25,917 bases of DNA from a virus, in IMG/VR virus record IMGVR_UViG_3300042691_009022, positions 1 through 25,917 of that record. One strand, 5' to 3'. A program made the position numbers and the translations under genes. The notes beneath the pieces were generated by a model. That model had not been told where the DNA came from. It did not search any database and saw nothing but the letters and a program-made list of their open reading frames with translations. This document shows, piece by piece, positions 7,253 to 14,765 of the stretch (within the stretch, counting starts at the first letter, position 1; every line of letters begins with the position of its first letter).

Positions 7253-9103
7253 ATGCGTGATTACATTTTCGATATTGAAACCTACCCCAACGTGTTCACG
7301 CTGGCTGTGGAACACGCAGATGCGCCGCTTTGCTGGATGTTCGAGATCAGCGACTGGCGTAACGACAGCCGGGACATCATCGCTTTCCTCCAGTTCCTGA
7401 AGGAAACGAATGCGCGAATGGTGGGCTTCAACAACCTGGGGTTCGACTACCCGGTCCTGCACCAACTGGTCCGCATGGGTGTCTCCAACGCAGAGACGCT
7501 GTACGCCAAGGCAATGGCGATCATCAACTCCCAAGATGACGACGGTAGCAAGTGGATGCATCTTGTCAAACCGTCCGATCGGTTTGTCACTCAGATCGAC
7601 CTGTTCAAGATCCACCACTTTGACAACAAGGCCCGGGCCACCAGTCTCAAGGTGCTGGAGTTCAACATGCGCTCGGACAACATCGAGGATCTGCCGTTCA
7701 AAGTGGGCACCACGCTGACCCGTGAGCAGGTCGAAGTGCTCAAGCGTTACAACGCACACGATGTGGCGCAGACCAAGGCGTTCTATCACAAGAGCCTCGA
7801 CATGCTGCACTTCCGCGAGGAACTGACGCGCAAGTACGCCCGGGATTTTATGAACCACAACGACACCAAGATCGGCAAGGACTACTTCGTCATGAAGTTG
7901 GAGGAGGCCGGTGTGCCTTGCTACGACTTCAGCGACAAGGGCCGCACACCCCGGCAAACCAAGCGTCCCGTGATCCACCTCAAGGACGCCATCCTGCCGT
8001 GGATCACGTTCATGACACCCGAGTTCAACCGGGTGATGGAATGGCTCAAGCAGCAGTCGATCACCGAGACCAAGGGCGTGTTCAATGATCTGACGGCCAC
8101 CGTGGACGGCTTTACCTTTGTGTTTGGCCTGGGCGGTATCCACGGATCAGTGGAGAGCGAGGTCATCGAGTCCGATGATGAGCACGTCATCGTGGACTTG
8201 GATGTCACTTCATACTATCCAAACTTGGCAATCACGAATGGGTTTTACCCGGCCCATCTCGGAAAAGAGTTTGTCAGCATCTACAAGCACCTGTTTGAGC
8301 AGCGCAAGCAGTACCCCAAAAAGTCCGCAGAGTCGGCCATGCTGAAGCTCGCGCTCAACGGCGTCTACGGCGACAGCAACAACCAGTTCAGCGTGTTCTA
8401 CGACCCGCTGTTCACCATGAGCATTACACTCAACGGGCAACTGCTGCTGTGCGTCCTGGCCGAAGGGCTGATGCAGATCCCCGGCCTGCGCTTGATCCAA
8501 GTGAACACCGACGGCTTGACCGTGCGGGTGCCTCGCGCAAGCAAGCTGCTGGTTGACCTGGCCCGTGCAGCATGGCAAGAGCGCACCGGACTGAACCTTG
8601 AGGAGGCTGTCTACAAGCGCATGTCGATCCGCGATGTCAACAGCTACCTTGCCGAGTATGAGGACGGCAGCGTCAAGCGCAAGGGAGCCTACGAGTGGAA
8701 AACGCAGTGGCACCAGAACGCCAGCGCACTCGTGGTGCCCAAGGTGGCCGAGAAGGTGCTGGTCGAGGGTGCGCCGATCAGGCAGACCGTGGAACAGTGG
8801 CCCGACCTCATGGACTTCATGCTGCGCACCAAGGTGCCCAGGTCGAGCTTCCTGTCCATCGAGGAGCAGCATGGCGTGCCGGTCAAGATCCAAAACACCA
8901 CGCGCTACTACATCGCCAAGGGCGGCGGGCACCTGTTCAAGTGGATGCCGCCGCTCAAGGGTAGGGACAGTTGGCGCAGGATCGGCGTTGAGTCGGGCTG
9001 GGGTGTGCAGGTCTGCAACGACATCAAGGACGCCGGGAAGCTGCCGGTAGATTTTGATTATTACGTCAGAGAAGTGGAGAAACTATGTCTGGGACTCGCA
9101 TAA
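7253..9103 (+). CDS. Family B DNA polymerase with 3'-5' exonuclease, 616 aa
   Basis: Replicative polymerase. The proofreading domain shows Exo I FDIETYPN (D7, E9), Exo II GFNNLGFDYP and Exo III YNAHDVAQT. The polymerase domain shows motif A DLDVTSYYPNL (D315), motif B KLALNGVYG (K365, N369, Y372) and motif C VNTDG (418-421). These are family B motifs, not family A. Motif C has N in place of the usual first Asp of DTD but keeps the metal-binding D420. At 616 aa it is short for the family, with a compact fingers/thumb region. I used ATG 7253; an in-frame TTG lies at 7241. The ribosome site is weak (GGT). It overlaps the next gene by 19 bases. Confidence 0.92.
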   Translation: MRDYIFDIETYPNVFTLAVEHADAPLCWMFEISDWRNDSRDIIAFLQFLKETNARMVGFNNLGFDYPVLHQLVRMGVSNAETLYAKAMAIINSQDDDGSKWMHLVKPSDRFVTQIDLFKIHHFDNKARATSLKVLEFNMRSDNIEDLPFKVGTTLTREQVEVLKRYNAHDVAQTKAFYHKSLDMLHFREELTRKYARDFMNHNDTKIGKDYFVMKLEEAGVPCYDFSDKGRTPRQTKRPVIHLKDAILPWITFMTPEFNRVMEWLKQQSITETKGVFNDLTATVDGFTFVFGLGGIHGSVESEVIESDDEHVIVDLDVTSYYPNLAITNGFYPAHLGKEFVSIYKHLFEQRKQYPKKSAESAMLKLALNGVYGDSNNQFSVFYDPLFTMSITLNGQLLLCVLAEGLMQIPGLRLIQVNTDGLTVRVPRASKLLVDLARAAWQERTGLNLEEAVYKRMSIRDVNSYLAEYEDGSVKRKGAYEWKTQWHQNASALVVPKVAEKVLVEGAPIRQTVEQWPDLMDFMLRTKVPRSSFLSIEEQHGVPVKIQNTTRYYIAKGGGHLFKWMPPLKGRDSWRRIGVESGWGVQVCNDIKDAGKLPVDFDYYVREVEKLCLGLA

Positions 9104-9420
9104 AGGCAGTGCCTGCGAAATACTTTGCTTTCGGTCCATACCGTGCCGAGCAAGTTGGTCCGAAATGGTGGGGTGTCATGAACGTCAACGGATTTAATTG
9201 TTTGACGTTCCCCGACAAGCCGGGTGCGGTAATAACTGACGAGGTGCACGCCAAGCAGATCGCCGATGAATGGAATGCGCGAACTGAACCATTCGAGTAC
9301 CCACCGAGCACCTATGTGCCGCCCAAAACGCAACAGTGGACGGAAGAACAAATGTCGGCGTATATCCGCAACCAGCGCTACAACTTTAAGACAAAACGTT
9401 TTGAAAACGGAAACACCTGA
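9085..9420 (+). CDS. Phage hypothetical protein, 111 aa
   Basis: Unrecognised soluble protein. It starts MSGTRIKAVPAKYFAFGPYR, has a Trp-rich GPKWWGVMNVNG segment suggestive of a beta sheet, then a basic, Tyr-rich tail (YIRNQRYNFKTKRF). GTGGAG upstream provides a ribosome site inside the end of the polymerase gene, and the 19-base overlap suggests coupling. It lies between polymerase and DUF3310, so a replication accessory role is possible, though nothing in the sequence shows it. Confidence 0.75.
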   Translation: MSGTRIKAVPAKYFAFGPYRAEQVGPKWWGVMNVNGFNCLTFPDKPGAVITDEVHAKQIADEWNARTEPFEYPPSTYVPPKTQQWTEEQMSAYIRNQRYNFKTKRFENGNT

Positions 9421-9466: not shown

Positions 9467-9679
9467 ATGACAACATTAAACAAACAAGTAGCTGGCACTC
9501 ATTACAAAGACATGCCGATCCAACCTGTTGAGTACATCTACGCCAACGCGATTGGGTACTTCGAGGGTAATGTGATCAAGTACGTTTCTAGGTGGCGCAA
9601 GAAGAACGGCATCGCTGACTTGGAAAAGGCCAAGCACTACATTGAGTTGCTGATTGAACTGGAGAACCGCAGTGCTTGA
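9467..9679 (+). CDS. DUF3310 (SaV-like) protein, 70 aa
   Basis: Clear DUF3310 signature: NKQVAGTHYKDMPIQPVEYI, then EGNVIKYVSRWRKKNG and DLEKAKHYIELLIEL. The family is widespread in phage early regions and is often described as a nucleotide-kinase-like or SaV-like domain; its biochemical role is not settled. I chose ATG 9467 because GAGGAG precedes it at good spacing and family members begin near here. An upstream in-frame ATG at 9422 would add 15 residues but has a poor ribosome site. An exact 66-bp piece of this gene recurs at 10271-10336. Confidence 0.88.
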   Translation: MTTLNKQVAGTHYKDMPIQPVEYIYANAIGYFEGNVIKYVSRWRKKNGIADLEKAKHYIELLIELENRSA

Positions 9680-9959
9680 GAAACAAATCGAAGCCAAGGT
9701 CTGCGAATACGCCAAAACATGCGGACTGCTGGTTTACAAGTTCACCAGCCCCGCTCGTGCTGCGGTCCCTGATCGCCTGTTCATCCGGTCCGATGGGCAC
9801 ATGTGGTTCTGCGAGTTCAAGCGCGGAGGCCAGAAGCCCACGCCTGCGCAGGAGCGTGAGCACCACAGGCTGCGTCAGCACAAGGTGTCGGTGTTTGTGG
9901 TGGACAGCGTAGAAGACGGCAAGGCAATGGTGGACATGATGGTGATGGGGGTCGCATGA
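9672..9959 (+). CDS. VRR-NUC domain nuclease, 95 aa
   Basis: Standalone VRR-NUC domain of the PD-(D/E)XK superfamily. It has helix IEAKVCEYAKTCGLLVYK, the catalytic Asp in VPDRLFI (D34), the FCEFKRGG strand (E48, K50) and PTPAQ following. Related phage proteins act as structure-specific endonucleases and commonly neighbour an SNF2-type helicase gene, as in this operon. The GTG start at 9672 has GGAG 7 bases upstream and overlaps the DUF3310 stop. Its last 35 bases are copied exactly at 10332-10366. The size is typical of single-domain phage forms. Confidence 0.9.
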   Translation: MLEKQIEAKVCEYAKTCGLLVYKFTSPARAAVPDRLFIRSDGHMWFCEFKRGGQKPTPAQEREHHRLRQHKVSVFVVDSVEDGKAMVDMMVMGVA

Positions 9960-10177
9960 AATTGATTTCTGAAACAACGGTGTCTCGTTATCGAATTGTT
10001 GATCGCGTTGATCAATGGTCCAAAATGATGCAAGTTAATTGGGGCACATCTCGTCGTTATCGACACACACCTGATTTGCTGTCATTTTGGGGTTGGTTGG
10101 GATTGTCCGATCGCGTGGAAATTGAATGGGAGGCTGAGTGGTTTCCTGTGAAAGTGATGCCTGATGCTGACATCTGA
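9956..10177 (+). CDS. Hypothetical protein in an AT-richer insert, 73 aa
   Basis: Starts by ATGA overlap with the VRR-NUC stop and runs MKLISETTVSRYRIVDRVDQ to VKVMPDADI. No family recognised; it is basic and Trp-rich in the middle (SFWGWLGL, EIEWEAEWF). Codons such as TTG, CGT, TTT and TTA make this stretch visibly AT-richer than its neighbours, hinting at separate origin. Its last codons overlap the start of a truncated helicase reading frame at 10164. That resembles the normal overlap seen at real gene junctions here, so this gene may have arrived with that fragment from a related phage. Confidence 0.6.
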   Translation: MKLISETTVSRYRIVDRVDQWSKMMQVNWGTSRRYRHTPDLLSFWGWLGLSDRVEIEWEAEWFPVKVMPDADI

Positions 10178-10301
10178 CCTGCTTCACGACTACCAGAAGA
10201 AGGCGGTCAACTTCCAATGCACTCATGTCAACTCGATGCTGTGGTTGGACATGGGTCTAGGCAAGACCGTAACGCGATTGGGTACTTCGAGGGTAATGTG
10301 A
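10164..10301 (+). pseudogene. Truncated, diverged duplicate of the helicase 5' end
   Basis: The frame starts MLTSDLLHDYQKKAVNFQCT and reaches the Walker A loop MGLGKT, closely matching the first 35 residues of the helicase at 11055 with several substitutions at protein and DNA level. After GLGKTV it runs into an out-of-frame copy of DUF3310 sequence and stops after 45 codons. All later helicase motifs are absent, so it cannot be an active ATPase. The divergence from the intact gene argues against simple local duplication and suggests derivation from a related phage genome. Confidence 0.85.
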
Positions 10302-10336
10302 TCAAGTACGTTTCTAGGTGGCGCAAGAAGAACGGC
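10271..10336 (+). repeat. Exact 66-bp copy of an internal DUF3310 segment
   Basis: Identical to 9545-9610 (from AACGCGATTGGG to AAGAACGGC). It is joined on the left to the helicase fragment and on the right to a copy of the VRR-NUC 3' end. Not translated in the DUF3310 frame from any visible start. Confidence 0.95.
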
Positions 10337-10366
10337 AAGGCAATGGTGGACATGATGGTGATGGGG
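10332..10366 (+). repeat. Exact 35-bp copy of the VRR-NUC 3' end
   Basis: Identical to 9916-9950 (ACGGCAAGGCAATGG to GATGGGG). It overlaps the DUF3310 copy by the shared ACGGC and ends 5 bases before the methyltransferase ATG. It therefore forms the leader of that gene. Confidence 0.95.
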
Positions 10367-10371
10367 AGTAT

Positions 10372-11061
10372 ATGAATGAGTTGGCTCTTTTCGCAGGCGC
10401 TGGTGGTGGACTACTTGCGTCAGAACTCCTCGGGTGGCGCACAATCTGCGCCGTTGAGTACGCAGCATATCCCGCAAGCATACTGTGCGCCCGACAAAAT
10501 GACGGATTTCTCCCACCTTTCCCAATCTGGGATGACGTTTCAACCTTTGACGGAAGAACGTGGCACGGAGTTGTTGATATTGTATCTGGAGGGTTCCCGT
10601 GTCAGGCGTTTTCAACAGCAGCCAGAGGAGCCAACATCGCATCTAAAAATCTTTGGCCTCAGATGCGAAGAATTGTTCAAGAAGTCAGACCTAAATTTGT
10701 ATTTGCTGAAAACGTCACAGAAAACGCAATTGAAATGGCAGCCTGTGATTTATTGGCAGACGGGTACAACTCAAGGTACATCAAGCTCAGTGCATCAGAC
10801 GTGGGTGCAGATCATATTCGGGACAGGTTTTGGTTACTTGCATACACCGACGTGCACAGCAAATTTTGCAGCACGGTCAATGCAGAAACACAAAGGTTGT
10901 CGCAACTTTGTAACAGTGTTTGGCAAACCATCCCCGATCAACTTCGAGTTTTTGATGGGGTGGCCCATAGGATGGACAGACTTAAAGCCCTTGGAAACGG
11001 ACAAGTACCTCTTGTGGCAGCAGTCGCATTTCTTAAACTGTGGGAGGAAATAACATGCTGA
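10372..11061 (+). CDS. DNA cytosine-C5 methyltransferase, 229 aa
   Basis: Predicted to methylate cytosine at C5 in a short DNA target. Visible motifs are SAM-binding motif I LFAGAGGG (residues 6-13), motif IV GGFPCQAFS with catalytic C77, motif VI ENV (113-115), motif VIII GADHIRDRFWLLA, and motif X KALGNGQVP near 205-213. The target recognition region between VIII and X is only about 35 residues, so the enzyme is compact. No restriction partner is visible, which suggests self-protection against host restriction or regulation. I chose ATG 10372; upstream in-frame codons belong to duplicated VRR-NUC sequence. The gene is AT-richer than its flanks and overlaps the helicase start. Confidence 0.9.
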   Translation: MNELALFAGAGGGLLASELLGWRTICAVEYAAYPASILCARQNDGFLPPFPIWDDVSTFDGRTWHGVVDIVSGGFPCQAFSTAARGANIASKNLWPQMRRIVQEVRPKFVFAENVTENAIEMAACDLLADGYNSRYIKLSASDVGADHIRDRFWLLAYTDVHSKFCSTVNAETQRLSQLCNSVWQTIPDQLRVFDGVAHRMDRLKALGNGQVPLVAAVAFLKLWEEITC

Positions 11062-12461
11062 CACCTGACCTGCTCCACGGCTACCAGCAGAAGGCCGTCA
11101 ACTTCCAATGCACCCATCCACACTCGATGCTGTGGCTGGACATGGGGCTGGGCAAGACGGTGGTCACGCTGACAAGCCTCGCGCACCTGCTGCGCACCGG
11201 CTTCCTGCGAGGTGTAATCATCGTGGCTCCGATCCGGGTCATCCGGTTGGTATGGCGTCAAGAAAGTGCGAAATGGGAGCACACCAAGCACCTGAAGTTC
11301 AGCATGGTCGCGGGCACCAAGGATCAGCGCACCAGGGCGCTGCTGCGCCCTGCTGACATCTACATGATCAACTATGAGAACCTTGGCTGGATGGCCGAGA
11401 CGCTTCAGACCTATTTCGTCAAGAAGGATCGTCCGATGCCTTTTAACGGGATTGTCTGGGACGAGATCAGCAAAATGAAGAACAGCGCCACGAACCGGGT
11501 CAAGGCGTTTCGCAAGATCGCTGATCAGTTTGACTGGACCACGGGCCTGACCGGCACCCCAGCCAGCAACGGTTACAAAGACCTGCACGGGCAGTTCCTC
11601 GTCGTGGACAGGGGTGAGCGCCTGGGCACCAACAAGACGGCTTTCCGCACCCGGTTTTACCGAAAGGTGGGTCCGTACAAAGGGGTGCCCTACGACGATA
11701 CCGAAGACACGATAAAGCAACTCATCGGAGACATTACTCTGGAGATGTCAGCCGAGGACTACAACCCGCTGCCCGACCTGATCATCAACAATGTCGAAAT
11801 TGAGATGCCCGATGATCTTCGTGGCAAGTACGAACAGATGGAGCGCGAGTTCTTCCTGACGCTTGACAGCGGCACAAGTGTCGAGGTGTTCAACCAGGCC
11901 AGCCTCACCAACAAGTGTTTGCAGTTCTCCAACGGTGCCATGTACCCCGTGGCCGGGATGCCGCTGTGGGAGCCGGTCCACGACCTCAAGCTCGACGCGC
12001 TGGAGGAGATCATCGACGAAGCCCAAGGCTCGCCTATCCTCTGCTCGTATGCGTATCGCAGCGATGCCCAGCGCATCATGGACCGATTCGAACACCTCGA
12101 TCCAATCAACCTGACCGACTGCAAGAGTGAGGCTGCGCTGACAAACGCCATGTACCGCTGGAAGACAGGTGACTGCCAACTGATGATCGGCCACCCGGCC
12201 AGCATGGGTCATGGGATTGACGGCTTGCAAAACAATGGTCACATTCTCGTCTGGTATGGCCTGAACTGGTCGCTGGACCTGTACGAGCAGTTCAACGCTC
12301 GAGTGCGCCGTCAAGGTCAGGGTGCCCCGGTCATGTGCCACCGCATTCTGATGCAAGCCACGCTGGACCAAGCGCAAGCCCTAGCACTTGACGAGAAGGC
12401 AACAACACAAGCAGGACTGCGCAACGCGGTCAAACAGTATCGTCAATCCAAAGGAGCATGA
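11055..12461 (+). CDS. SNF2/DEAD-like superfamily 2 helicase, 468 aa
   Basis: Two RecA-like domains. The first carries motif I DMGLGKT (29-35, K34), Ia IVAPIRVIRLVW, II WDEIS (DE at 136-137) and III TGLTGTPASN (163-172). The second carries a QLMIGHPASMGHGIDGLQ segment and motif VI EQFNARVRRQGQ with paired arginines. It likely remodels or unwinds DNA with the nearby VRR-NUC nuclease. ATG 11055 has GGGAGG upstream and overlaps the methyltransferase stop. The length matches phage SNF2-like helicases. A diverged copy of its first 35 codons lies at 10164. Confidence 0.92.
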   Translation: MLTPDLLHGYQQKAVNFQCTHPHSMLWLDMGLGKTVVTLTSLAHLLRTGFLRGVIIVAPIRVIRLVWRQESAKWEHTKHLKFSMVAGTKDQRTRALLRPADIYMINYENLGWMAETLQTYFVKKDRPMPFNGIVWDEISKMKNSATNRVKAFRKIADQFDWTTGLTGTPASNGYKDLHGQFLVVDRGERLGTNKTAFRTRFYRKVGPYKGVPYDDTEDTIKQLIGDITLEMSAEDYNPLPDLIINNVEIEMPDDLRGKYEQMEREFFLTLDSGTSVEVFNQASLTNKCLQFSNGAMYPVAGMPLWEPVHDLKLDALEEIIDEAQGSPILCSYAYRSDAQRIMDRFEHLDPINLTDCKSEAALTNAMYRWKTGDCQLMIGHPASMGHGIDGLQNNGHILVWYGLNWSLDLYEQFNARVRRQGQGAPVMCHRILMQATLDQAQALALDEKATTQAGLRNAVKQYRQSKGA

Positions 12462-12775: not shown

Positions 12776-12806
12776 GTGCCACACCAACAACCCAAGGAGT
12801 AATGTC

Positions 12807-13439
12807 ATGATCACAACACTAAACAAAATAAGGGCTAAAGCTCCTTGCTCCGGCGGTTGGTCAAAACTGCTAAAAAACTTGGGCAAAACGCAAGCCGACG
12901 ACGAGCCTTTGGCGATTGCGACAATTCTTGAAAGTAACGGTCTCGACGATGCGCTGTGGTGCCTGAAAACAATTGAAGGGTATCAGCGTGAAATGCGTTT
13001 GTTTGCAGTTGAATGCGCCCGGGGCGTGCAGCATTTAATTACTGACCCGCGTAGCATCGCAGCAATTGACGTGGCTGAAAGATTTGCAAACGGTCTTGCT
13101 ACCGACGCTGAATTAGCTGCGGCACAGGCTGCTGCGGGGGCTGCTGCGGGGGCTGCTGCGGGGGCTGCTGCGCGGGATGCGTGGGATGCTGCGTGCGCTG
13201 CTGCGTGCGCTGCTGCGTGCGCTGCTGCGGGGGCTGCTGCGCGGGCTGCTGCGTGGGCTGCTGCGTGGGCTGCTGCGCGGGATGCGCGGGATGTTGCGTG
13301 GGCTGCTGCGCGGGATGCTGCGTGGGCTGCTGCGCGGGATGCGCAAGCAAATTTACTGGCCCTACTGTGCGCCGGGGCTTTTGATTCAAACGATGAGGCA
13401 ATCGAAGCCGCCCACGGCATTACAGGAGATAAGAAATGA
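12807..13439 (+). CDS. Imm-5-like protein with Ala-rich tetrapeptide array, 210 aa
   Basis: Residues about 1-100 form a helical domain with WCLKTIEGYQREMRLFAVEC and a RSIAAIDVAERFANG segment. This combination, followed by Ala-rich WAAARDA repeats, I recall from phage and bacterial proteins annotated as putative Imm-5-like or immunity-type domains; no function is established. Residues about 104-180 are a run of AAAx units (x = G, C, W, R) interrupted by RDA, probably a long Ala-rich helix. The last 30 residues (NLLALLCAGAFDSND, then IEAAHGITG) recur in the short paralogue at 14356. AAGGAG precedes ATG 12807. Confidence 0.75.
   Translation: MITTLNKIRAKAPCSGGWSKLLKNLGKTQADDEPLAIATILESNGLDDALWCLKTIEGYQREMRLFAVECARGVQHLITDPRSIAAIDVAERFANGLATDAELAAAQAAAGAAAGAAAGAAARDAWDAACAAACAAACAAAGAAARAAAWAAAWAAARDARDVAWAAARDAAWAAARDAQANLLALLCAGAFDSNDEAIEAAHGITGDKK
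13117..13345 (+). repeat. GCTGCTGCG-rich low-complexity array
   Basis: About 230 bases of imperfect 12-base units (GCTGCTGCGGGG and variants with TGC, TGG or CGG in the last codon) encoding AAAG, AAAC, AAAW and AAAR. The array is prone to slippage and is the part missing from the short paralogue at 14356. Confidence 0.9.
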
Positions 13440-14020
13440 CCGACGACGAGAAACTGATGCAGCAGGCGCTGGAGGCGCTGGACGAAGTAGAGGCGCTGCT
13501 TACAAGCATGGATGTGACACACCTGCTGATTTACGGTGATGTAGACAACGCCATCGCCGCCCTGCGCGAGAGGTTGGCGCAGCCAAGCAAGCCGCTGACG
13601 GAGGAGAAGATCGCAGAGATGATGATGCAGACATGGGGCTGCGCCAGCATTGCACCACGCCACGCACCAGCCTTTGCCCGAGCCATCGAAGCCGCGCACG
13701 GCATCACGGGAGAAACCAAATTGCAGCCGGCACCAGACGCCGGATGGCAGCCAATTGAGACTGCACCAAAGACTGGACGCAAGGTGATCTTGTTCTATCT
13801 GAACCTAAACAACTTGCCGCGCACTGTGATGGCGCGATGGTTGACCGACGAGCAGGCCGCAGAAACAGACGCGGATGGTGTTGGTTTGGAAGGTGGTTGG
13901 TACGAGTGCATAGACAACTGGGACGACTACACCGAGGTGGCTATACATGAGGGAGAGCCAACTCACTGGATGCCACTGCCTGCGCCACCAGTCGAAGCCG
14001 CCCACGGCATCAAGGGGTAA
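13436..14020 (+). CDS. DUF551 domain protein, 194 aa
   Basis: The C-terminal half is DUF551: GWQPIETAPKTGRKVILFY (about residues 102-120), ending PTHWMPLPAPP. This small beta-rich domain is common in phages and prophages and has no known biochemical role. The N-terminal half (QQALEALDEVEALL, RERLAQPSKPLTEE, APAFARAIEAAHGI) is a separate helical unit that ends in the EAAHGI module, so the gene looks like a fusion of two gene products. It starts by ATGA overlap with the preceding stop. The C-terminus again ends VEAAHGIKG. Confidence 0.82.
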   Translation: MTDDEKLMQQALEALDEVEALLTSMDVTHLLIYGDVDNAIAALRERLAQPSKPLTEEKIAEMMMQTWGCASIAPRHAPAFARAIEAAHGITGETKLQPAPDAGWQPIETAPKTGRKVILFYLNLNNLPRTVMARWLTDEQAAETDADGVGLEGGWYECIDNWDDYTEVAIHEGEPTHWMPLPAPPVEAAHGIKG

Positions 14021-14023
14021 CAC

Positions 14024-14359
14024 ATGACCACACAACCCGAAGCCCTGCGACTGGCTGATTTGCTGGAGACCTATCCTCTTAACGAGTGCGATAAAGAAGC
14101 CGCAGCCGAACTTCGCCGATTGCACGAAGAACTTGCAGTCACTGTGTACCAAGTCGAGTTGCTGAGCGACGACCTATCGCGGTGCAGCAAGATGAATGCT
14201 GAACTGCTGGAGGCCTTGTCAAGCGTGTGGCTGTGGATGAAAAACCAAGCCGACGGGCAGAGCAAAGGCGGCCACGCCACTTTTGATCTGATGATGCTCA
14301 GAGAACAGCGAGACATTGCCCGCGCCGCCATCGCCAAAGCAGAAGGAGAGCAATCGTGA
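14024..14359 (+). CDS. Coiled-coil phage protein, 111 aa
   Basis: Starts MTTQPEALRLADLLETYPL and continues as a long heptad-like helix (AAAELRRLHEELAVTVYQ, then SKMNAELLEALSSVW) ending REQRDIARAAIAKAEG. I recall similar N- and C-termini from uncharacterised proteobacterial phage proteins. It is probably a soluble coiled-coil dimer; no catalytic motif is seen. It starts 3 bases after the DUF551 stop and overlaps the GTG of the next small gene. Function unknown. Confidence 0.78.
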   Translation: MTTQPEALRLADLLETYPLNECDKEAAAELRRLHEELAVTVYQVELLSDDLSRCSKMNAELLEALSSVWLWMKNQADGQSKGGHATFDLMMLREQRDIARAAIAKAEGEQS

Positions 14360-14532
14360 TCACAACACTAAACAAAATAAGGGCTAACTCCCCTTGCTCC
14401 GGCGGTTGGTCAAAACTGCTAAAAAACTTGGGCAAAACGCAAGCAAATTTACTGGCCCTACTGTGCGCCGGGGCTTTTGATTCAAACGATGAGGCAATCG
14501 AAGCCGCCCACGGCATCAAGGGGGACGCATGA
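14356..14532 (+). CDS. Internally deleted paralogue of the 12807 gene, 58 aa
   Basis: GTG start with AAGGAGAG upstream, overlapping the previous stop. The first 30 codons nearly match the 12807 gene (MITTLNKIRA, then CSGGWSKLLKNLGKTQA), and the remainder matches that gene's C-terminus (NLLALLCAGAFDSNDEAIEA). The middle 151 codons, including the helical domain and the Ala array, are absent, and the join is in frame at the shared heptamer CGCAAGC (14438-14444). It may encode a functional miniprotein or be a decaying copy. Its stop overlaps the next ATG. Confidence 0.7.
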   Translation: MITTLNKIRANSPCSGGWSKLLKNLGKTQANLLALLCAGAFDSNDEAIEAAHGIKGDA

Positions 14533-14765
14533 AAAGATTACCAAAAGGACAGAAGGCTCAGATCATGGGAACTCAGATGTTCCAGACAATGTACACCACC
14601 GACCAGATGCGCGAGTACGCCAAGAAGGCCGTGGAGGCTGAGCGTGAGGCGTGTGCGAAGGTGTGTGATGACGCCGCCGAGCTGCTAAACAGGCTAACAA
14701 ACTACGCAGGTGCAGACGAAGCAAACGCTTGCGCAGCCGCCATCCGAGCAGGGGGGAACACATGA
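14529..14765 (+). CDS. Small phage protein with EREACAKVCD motif, 78 aa
   Basis: Helical protein with MREYAKKAVEAEREACAKVC at about residues 27-46 and an IRAGGNT end. Similar AEREACAKV helices are common in small proteobacterial phage proteins of unknown role. The same motif and a matching end (IRARGNT) occur in the next gene, so the two are likely diverged duplicates or share swapped modules. It starts by ATGA overlap; no catalytic or metal site is evident beyond two Cys in the motif. Confidence 0.75.
   Translation: MKRLPKGQKAQIMGTQMFQTMYTTDQMREYAKKAVEAEREACAKVCDDAAELLNRLTNYAGADEANACAAAIRAGGNT

Follow-up and report, generated by a model that had tools for sequence, protein, structure and literature searches.

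Illegitimate recombination near gene boundaries is the standard explanation for phage mosaicism (PMC3029335, PMC2327257). Joins of this kind have little or no homology and leave functional genes intact. The resulting boundaries are usually clean. Bad joins seldom survive, and so a clean mosaic boundary conceals the way in which phages acquire genes. A trace of such an exchange has been described in mycobacteriophage Island3, where an extra orphan gene lies beside a partial duplicate of the 3′ end of its neighbor: genes 68 and 67 have 60-bp 3′ ends in common, which was explained by a recombination whose partner may have been an unknown phage (PMC3029335). Slots for interchangeable cargo that are flanked by fixed core genes are known from the hotspots of P2-like phages and P4-like satellites (PMC9122126).

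Here, we analyzed a 25,917-bp IMG/VR virus record from an uncultivated freshwater-type phage (the window) in which a patch of about 200 bases, composed of pieces of three neighboring replication genes, separates two cargo ORFs. The nearest named relative is phage DSL-LC05 of the proposed family Luchaoviridae (OR003940; PMC10611076). It has the same block of DUF3310, nuclease and SNF2 helicase and matches the window with 84% nucleotide identity across 65% of a 3.1-kb query, but it has neither cargo nor patch between nuclease and helicase. Compared to Island3, which has one repeat of about 60 bp and requires one exchange, the patch combines fragments of three genes through two joints, and one of the fragments is an allele that differs from the window's own gene. 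Whereas mosaic boundaries are usually clean, the probable out-of-register join in the window has left readable gene fragments. In contrast to the P2/P4-like hotspots, the slot in this phage family is a single inter-gene boundary within the replication block and usually takes up one ORF that overlaps at both its start and its stop; a role of its cargo in defense is a candidate at most. The event itself is of an ordinary kind, but the window is a more complex, well-preserved and unusually legible example: a join that was probably made out of register has survived, and its sources, the joints and a deletion can still be read from it.

Gene order and intact genes of the locus

The genes of the locus are arranged in the order polB-like gene, orphan 111-aa ORF, DUF3310, VRR-NUC-type nuclease, 73-aa ORF, patch, C5 cytosine DNA methyltransferase, SNF2 helicase and MazG-like gene. 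The intact genes described here, both cargo ORFs and all parts of the patch lie on the plus strand. The intact DUF3310 gene (9467-9679, 70 aa; Pfam PF11753, E 1e-12) is followed by the intact gene of the small VRR-NUC-type nuclease (9672-9959), which starts with GTG at 9672 or TTG at 9675. The product matched PHROG 93 (endonuclease, E 7e-26) and PHROG 5702 (Holliday junction resolvase) but no Pfam or NCBIfam family; the label VRR-NUC is kept for convenience and goes back to the naming in the original prediction, together with the PHROG matches. The intact SNF2-type helicase, here called helicase B (11055-12461; PF00176, E 8e-18), has 80 relatives, but no match was found in bacterial and archaeal genomes.

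Two cargo ORFs lie between nuclease and helicase. The first, an orphan of 73 aa (9956-10177) with a low GC content of 0.45, starts in an ATGA in which it overlaps the VRR-NUC stop. It matched no Pfam, PHROG or NCBIfam family and had no convincing relative in phage records or IMG/VR, and a sensitive tblastn search of the related loci gave matches at chance level only. The second is an intact small C5 cytosine DNA methyltransferase of 229 aa (10372-11061; PF00145, E 7e-22; PHROG 363, E 1e-50), whose stop is overlapped by the ATGCTGA at the start of helicase B. Used as a query against IMG/VR it retrieved a broad phage family, with the nearest relatives at 58-64% amino acid identity and none of them directly beside this helicase. 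An alternative frame of 225 aa across the methyltransferase (10376-11053) was discarded as a mechanical ORF, since the family match belongs to the methyltransferase frame.

The patch consists of three gene fragments

The patch (10164-10366) had been predicted to be stitched together from three replication genes, and this was borne out by a repeat search and by BLAST of the window against itself. Piece 1 (10164-10270) is a diverged copy of the helicase 5′ end and matches 11055-11161 over 107 nt with 86.9% identity (E 2e-31). It spans the Walker A motif GLGKT and reaches into codon 36, and its frame is closed by the TGA at 10299-10301. Piece 2 (10271-10337) is an exact copy of DUF3310 positions 9545-9611 (67 nt, 100%, E 1e-28); the original prediction of an exact DUF3310 segment that starts at 9545 was right but one base short at 66 bp. 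Piece 3 (10332-10366) is, as had been claimed, an exact 35-bp copy of the VRR-NUC 3′ end (9916-9950), and the similarity can be extended to 41 nt (10326-10366 versus 9911-9950; 97.6%, one gap, E 8e-12). All matches are in direct orientation, stem from the immediate neighbors and are far beyond chance. Each piece is thus a truncated copy of a gene, DUF3310, VRR-NUC or helicase, that is also present in full beside the patch.

Both ends of the patch are tied to the cargo. The final 14 nt of the 73-aa ORF, including its stop, lie within the helicase fragment, so that the ORF ends 13 nt beyond the helicase ATG, just as the cargo does in five relatives (L003, L005, L007, L040, L064). At the other end, the methyltransferase starts in an ATGA overlap with the end of the VRR-NUC sequence; the corresponding junction reads ...GATGGGAGTATGA in L175 and ...GATGGGGAGTATATGA in the window. 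Judged from the sequences, it makes sense to regard the ends of the patch as the putative original neighbors of the two cargoes, the helicase for the 73-aa ORF and VRR-NUC for the methyltransferase. The patch would thus join the helicase of a phage of the 73-aa type to DUF3310 and VRR-NUC of a phage of the methyltransferase type.

An open frame (10217-10375) runs through the patch, keeps the native frames of DUF3310 and VRR-NUC across their joint and ends in the ATGA over the methyltransferase start. Within this frame, a GTG at 10298 overlaps the stop of the helicase fragment, and a GGGGAG motif is present in piece 3 just ahead of the methyltransferase start. On paper, stops and starts follow one another without a break from the 73-aa gene to the methyltransferase, and ribosomes may use this chain. 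As the ends of the patch moreover provide a stop codon and, probably, a ribosome-binding region, the open frame could be taken to mean that the patch is itself a functional element, i.e. a structured RNA, a regulatory site or a gene for a small peptide. We consider this highly improbable: the patch has no Rfam match, folds no better than shuffled sequences (z 0.79) and is absent from all 126 related loci. On the basis of the folding score and the lack of Rfam matches, a structured regulatory RNA was rejected. The insertion of a transposon or an intron was also rejected, because there are no inverted arms at the ends of patch or cargo and no Rfam match; no transposase or integrase was found among the ORFs of patch and cargo.

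The two joints have little or no homology

Pieces 2 and 3 share six bases, ACGGCA (10332-10337), which are common to DUF3310 (9606-9611) and VRR-NUC (9916-9921), and the 310 bp between the parent positions are missing. The original prediction had noted an overlap present in both parents, but gave it as ACGGC. As a random junction between the DUF3310 and VRR-NUC genes would have 6 bp or more in common at a frequency of only 0.0008, the microhomology is probably meaningful. To the left, the similarity extends imperfectly to AGAAG(A)ACGGCA.

The other joint, between helicase and DUF3310 at 10270/10271, has about 0-2 bp in common. It had been placed in a common AACGC, but this was not supported: codon 36 is followed by ATC ACG in the helicase family, with ATC as codon 37 in 70 of 81 relatives, which leaves the homology at this near-zero value. 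Both joins are non-homologous, with no or very short homology (about 0-2 bp and 6 bp), as is typical of illegitimate recombination.

Could the patch be an artefact of assembly or library preparation, that is, a chimeric join of strain variants in the metagenome? The window is a contig of an uncultivated phage from a strain-diverse population, and exact searches retrieved no independent copy of the pieces. However, a k-mer assembler needs spanning reads for joins of 0-2 bp and 6 bp, so that an artefact would require two independent chimeras to have arisen in the library only about 65 bp apart. In addition, the native reading frames and the ATGA start region of the methyltransferase are intact. 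An artefact is thus unlikely.

The helicase fragment comes from another phage lineage

The identity of 86.9% between piece 1 and the window's own helicase equals the median between population alleles (86.9%), and the closest relatives of piece 1 are L027, L029, L031 and L035 (94.4%). In residues D9, K12 and N23 the fragment has the common type, whereas the helicase of the window has G9, Q12 and H23. Piece 1 is thus a genuine different allele of the population, from another phage lineage, in agreement with the earlier suggestion that it came from a related phage. A search for a phage that carries this fragment had also been proposed; no relative with the 73-aa gene was found. Exact searches of IMG/VR with part of the helicase fragment and with the DUF3310 segment gave no match; the closest relative over the 67-bp DUF3310 segment has 91% identity. 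Two residues of the fragment, S4 and V22, were not seen among 103 distinct alleles, weakly suggesting relaxed constraint. This is weak evidence for decay because 12 of the 103 alleles likewise carry at least one unseen residue.

The exact match of pieces 2 and 3 (96 distinct bases) to the genes of the window itself, compared to 91% for the DUF3310 segment of the closest relative, could point to an origin within the genome: a tandem duplication from DUF3310 to the helicase 5′ end, after which the left cargo and the helicase 5′ end were replaced by homologous recombination with another phage. The foreign allele then demands an extra exchange, for which the right flank would be just the 107-bp helicase stub, and we regard this route as improbable.

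The VRR-NUC/helicase boundary is a cargo hotspot

The locus was compared with 126 non-redundant related loci from IMG/VR, 124 of which have both VRR-NUC and helicase; any stretch of more than 100 bp between the two was counted as cargo. Cargo is present in 54 of the 124 loci (44%), and in the other 70 VRR-NUC and helicase directly adjoin or overlap each other, mostly by the 7-nt overlap ATGCTGA, a motif that is found at the helicase start in 93 of 124 loci. In 51 of the 54 cargo loci, a start codon overlaps the VRR-NUC stop. Among the first 80 loci, cargo was found at this boundary in 40 of 80, at DUF3310/VRR-NUC in 1 of 69, at helicase/MazG in 0 of 25 and at polB/DUF3310 in 16 of 68. With its constant core flanks, its variable content and a frequency of cargo far above that of the neighboring boundaries, the VRR-NUC/helicase boundary is a hotspot. 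The polB/DUF3310 boundary is a secondary variable slot, which in the window is occupied by the orphan 111-aa ORF (9085-9420).

The cargo is diverse and includes C5-methyltransferases (L059, L069, L173, L175), HNH nucleases (L061, L064), a Mom-family protein (L063) and proteins with a PAPS-reductase domain (L026 and, weakly, L003), while several further cargoes are small unknown ORFs. Many relatives have small-ORF cargoes in this slot that overlap the helicase start, and the order DUF3310, VRR-NUC, C5-methyltransferase, helicase is found in L069 and L175 and, up to the end of the contig, in L173. The view of the patch as a frozen record of recombination or template switching between two gene orders thus gains support from the relatives. 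The window is nevertheless a singleton: none of the 126 relatives has a patch-like scar or a second copy of helicase, VRR-NUC or DUF3310, and a search for stubs in the gaps of the relatives gave nothing above chance. With at least 124 relatives and cargo in some 44% of the loci at one boundary, the family is well suited to the study of how slots are filled, how cargo is stacked and how it decays. In L038 (3727-4335), two cargo ORFs are stacked, the second of which begins at ATGCTGA like the helicase start.

An organized exchange site may be imagined at this boundary, at which the small nuclease, or breakage at the ATGCTGA overlap, drives the turnover of single-gene cassettes and of which the patch is an out-of-register product; we consider this quite improbable.

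A model for the origin of the patch

We favor an origin, with a probability of roughly 0.57, in which the patch is the scar of an out-of-register recombination of the illegitimate type, which placed two cargo genes next to each other at the hotspot and was followed by a deletion between short repeats. Parent A would have had the order DUF3310, VRR-NUC, 73-aa gene and helicase A, and parent B the order DUF3310, VRR-NUC, C5-methyltransferase and helicase B; in DUF3310 and VRR-NUC the two parents would have been nearly identical. The DNA of A, ending at codon 36 of helicase A just past Walker A, would have been linked, practically without homology, to codon 27 of DUF3310 of B. This would give an intermediate with DUF3310, VRR-NUC, 73-aa gene, truncated helicase A, truncated DUF3310, a second VRR-NUC, methyltransferase and helicase B. 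Next, 310 bp may have been deleted across the imperfect repeat AGAAG(A)ACGGCA, which would have fused 67 bp of DUF3310 to the last 35 bp of VRR-NUC. Parent A is hypothetical, because neither a relative of the 73-aa gene nor a close relative of the DUF3310 allele was found (best 91%). Parents of the required kind are realistic, since L016 and L042 form such a pair: they share 98.5% identity in VRR-NUC and 86.9% in the helicase 5′ end and carry different cargo.

The same anatomy and the same two parents would result from a single multi-step template switch between phages A and B, of the type of microhomology-mediated break-induced replication. A fork on B would have switched to A inside VRR-NUC, copied the 73-aa gene together with 107 bp of helicase A, returned to DUF3310 of B for 67 bp, slipped to the VRR-NUC 3′ end and continued through the methyltransferase. 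Serial template switching does yield tandem short templated pieces with joints such as those of 0-2 bp and 6 bp seen here, but the second joint is explained equally well by a simple deletion between short repeats, of which there are other examples in the window and in L036 (see below). We consider the single template switch unlikely, albeit the most plausible of the alternatives; one contig gives the same product either way and cannot distinguish one event from two.

The scar was most likely retained because both of its ends still work. Piece 1 would supply the stop of the 73-aa gene, and piece 3 the predicted ribosome-binding and ATGA start region of the methyltransferase. The shortened repeat, moreover, would be less liable to be looped out by homologous recombination.

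Deletions between short repeats elsewhere

The proposed deletion step has parallels, by analogy, in the window and in the family. The stretch 14354-14516 is a second copy of an alanine-repeat gene (12805-13420) that lacks 453 bp and whose two parts meet in frame at the 7-bp repeat CGCAAGC. Its sources are 12805-12895 (95.6%) and 13342-13420 (100%). As the first part and its source disagree at 4 of 91 positions, at least this rearrangement is no fresh artefact. In L036, the cargo at the VRR-NUC/helicase hotspot is reduced to its first codons and its last part. At 5882-6007 in L036 and at 129-242 in L023 there are remnants of an L072-type cargo: the bulk of the gene is missing, but its start, its end and the overlaps are retained.

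Further repeats were seen in the window. An array of 12-bp repeats (13083-13373) encodes an alanine-rich stretch of the ORF that ends at 13439. A segment of about 40 bp that encodes IEAAHGI.G or a close variant occurs four times (13398-13437, 13682-13721, 13988-14027 and 14494-14533), three times at ORF ends (13439, 14020 and 14532) and once in the interior of the ORF that ends at 14020. A 54-bp direct repeat (1298-1351 and 1404-1457), with 98% identity between its copies, lies close to the window's left end.
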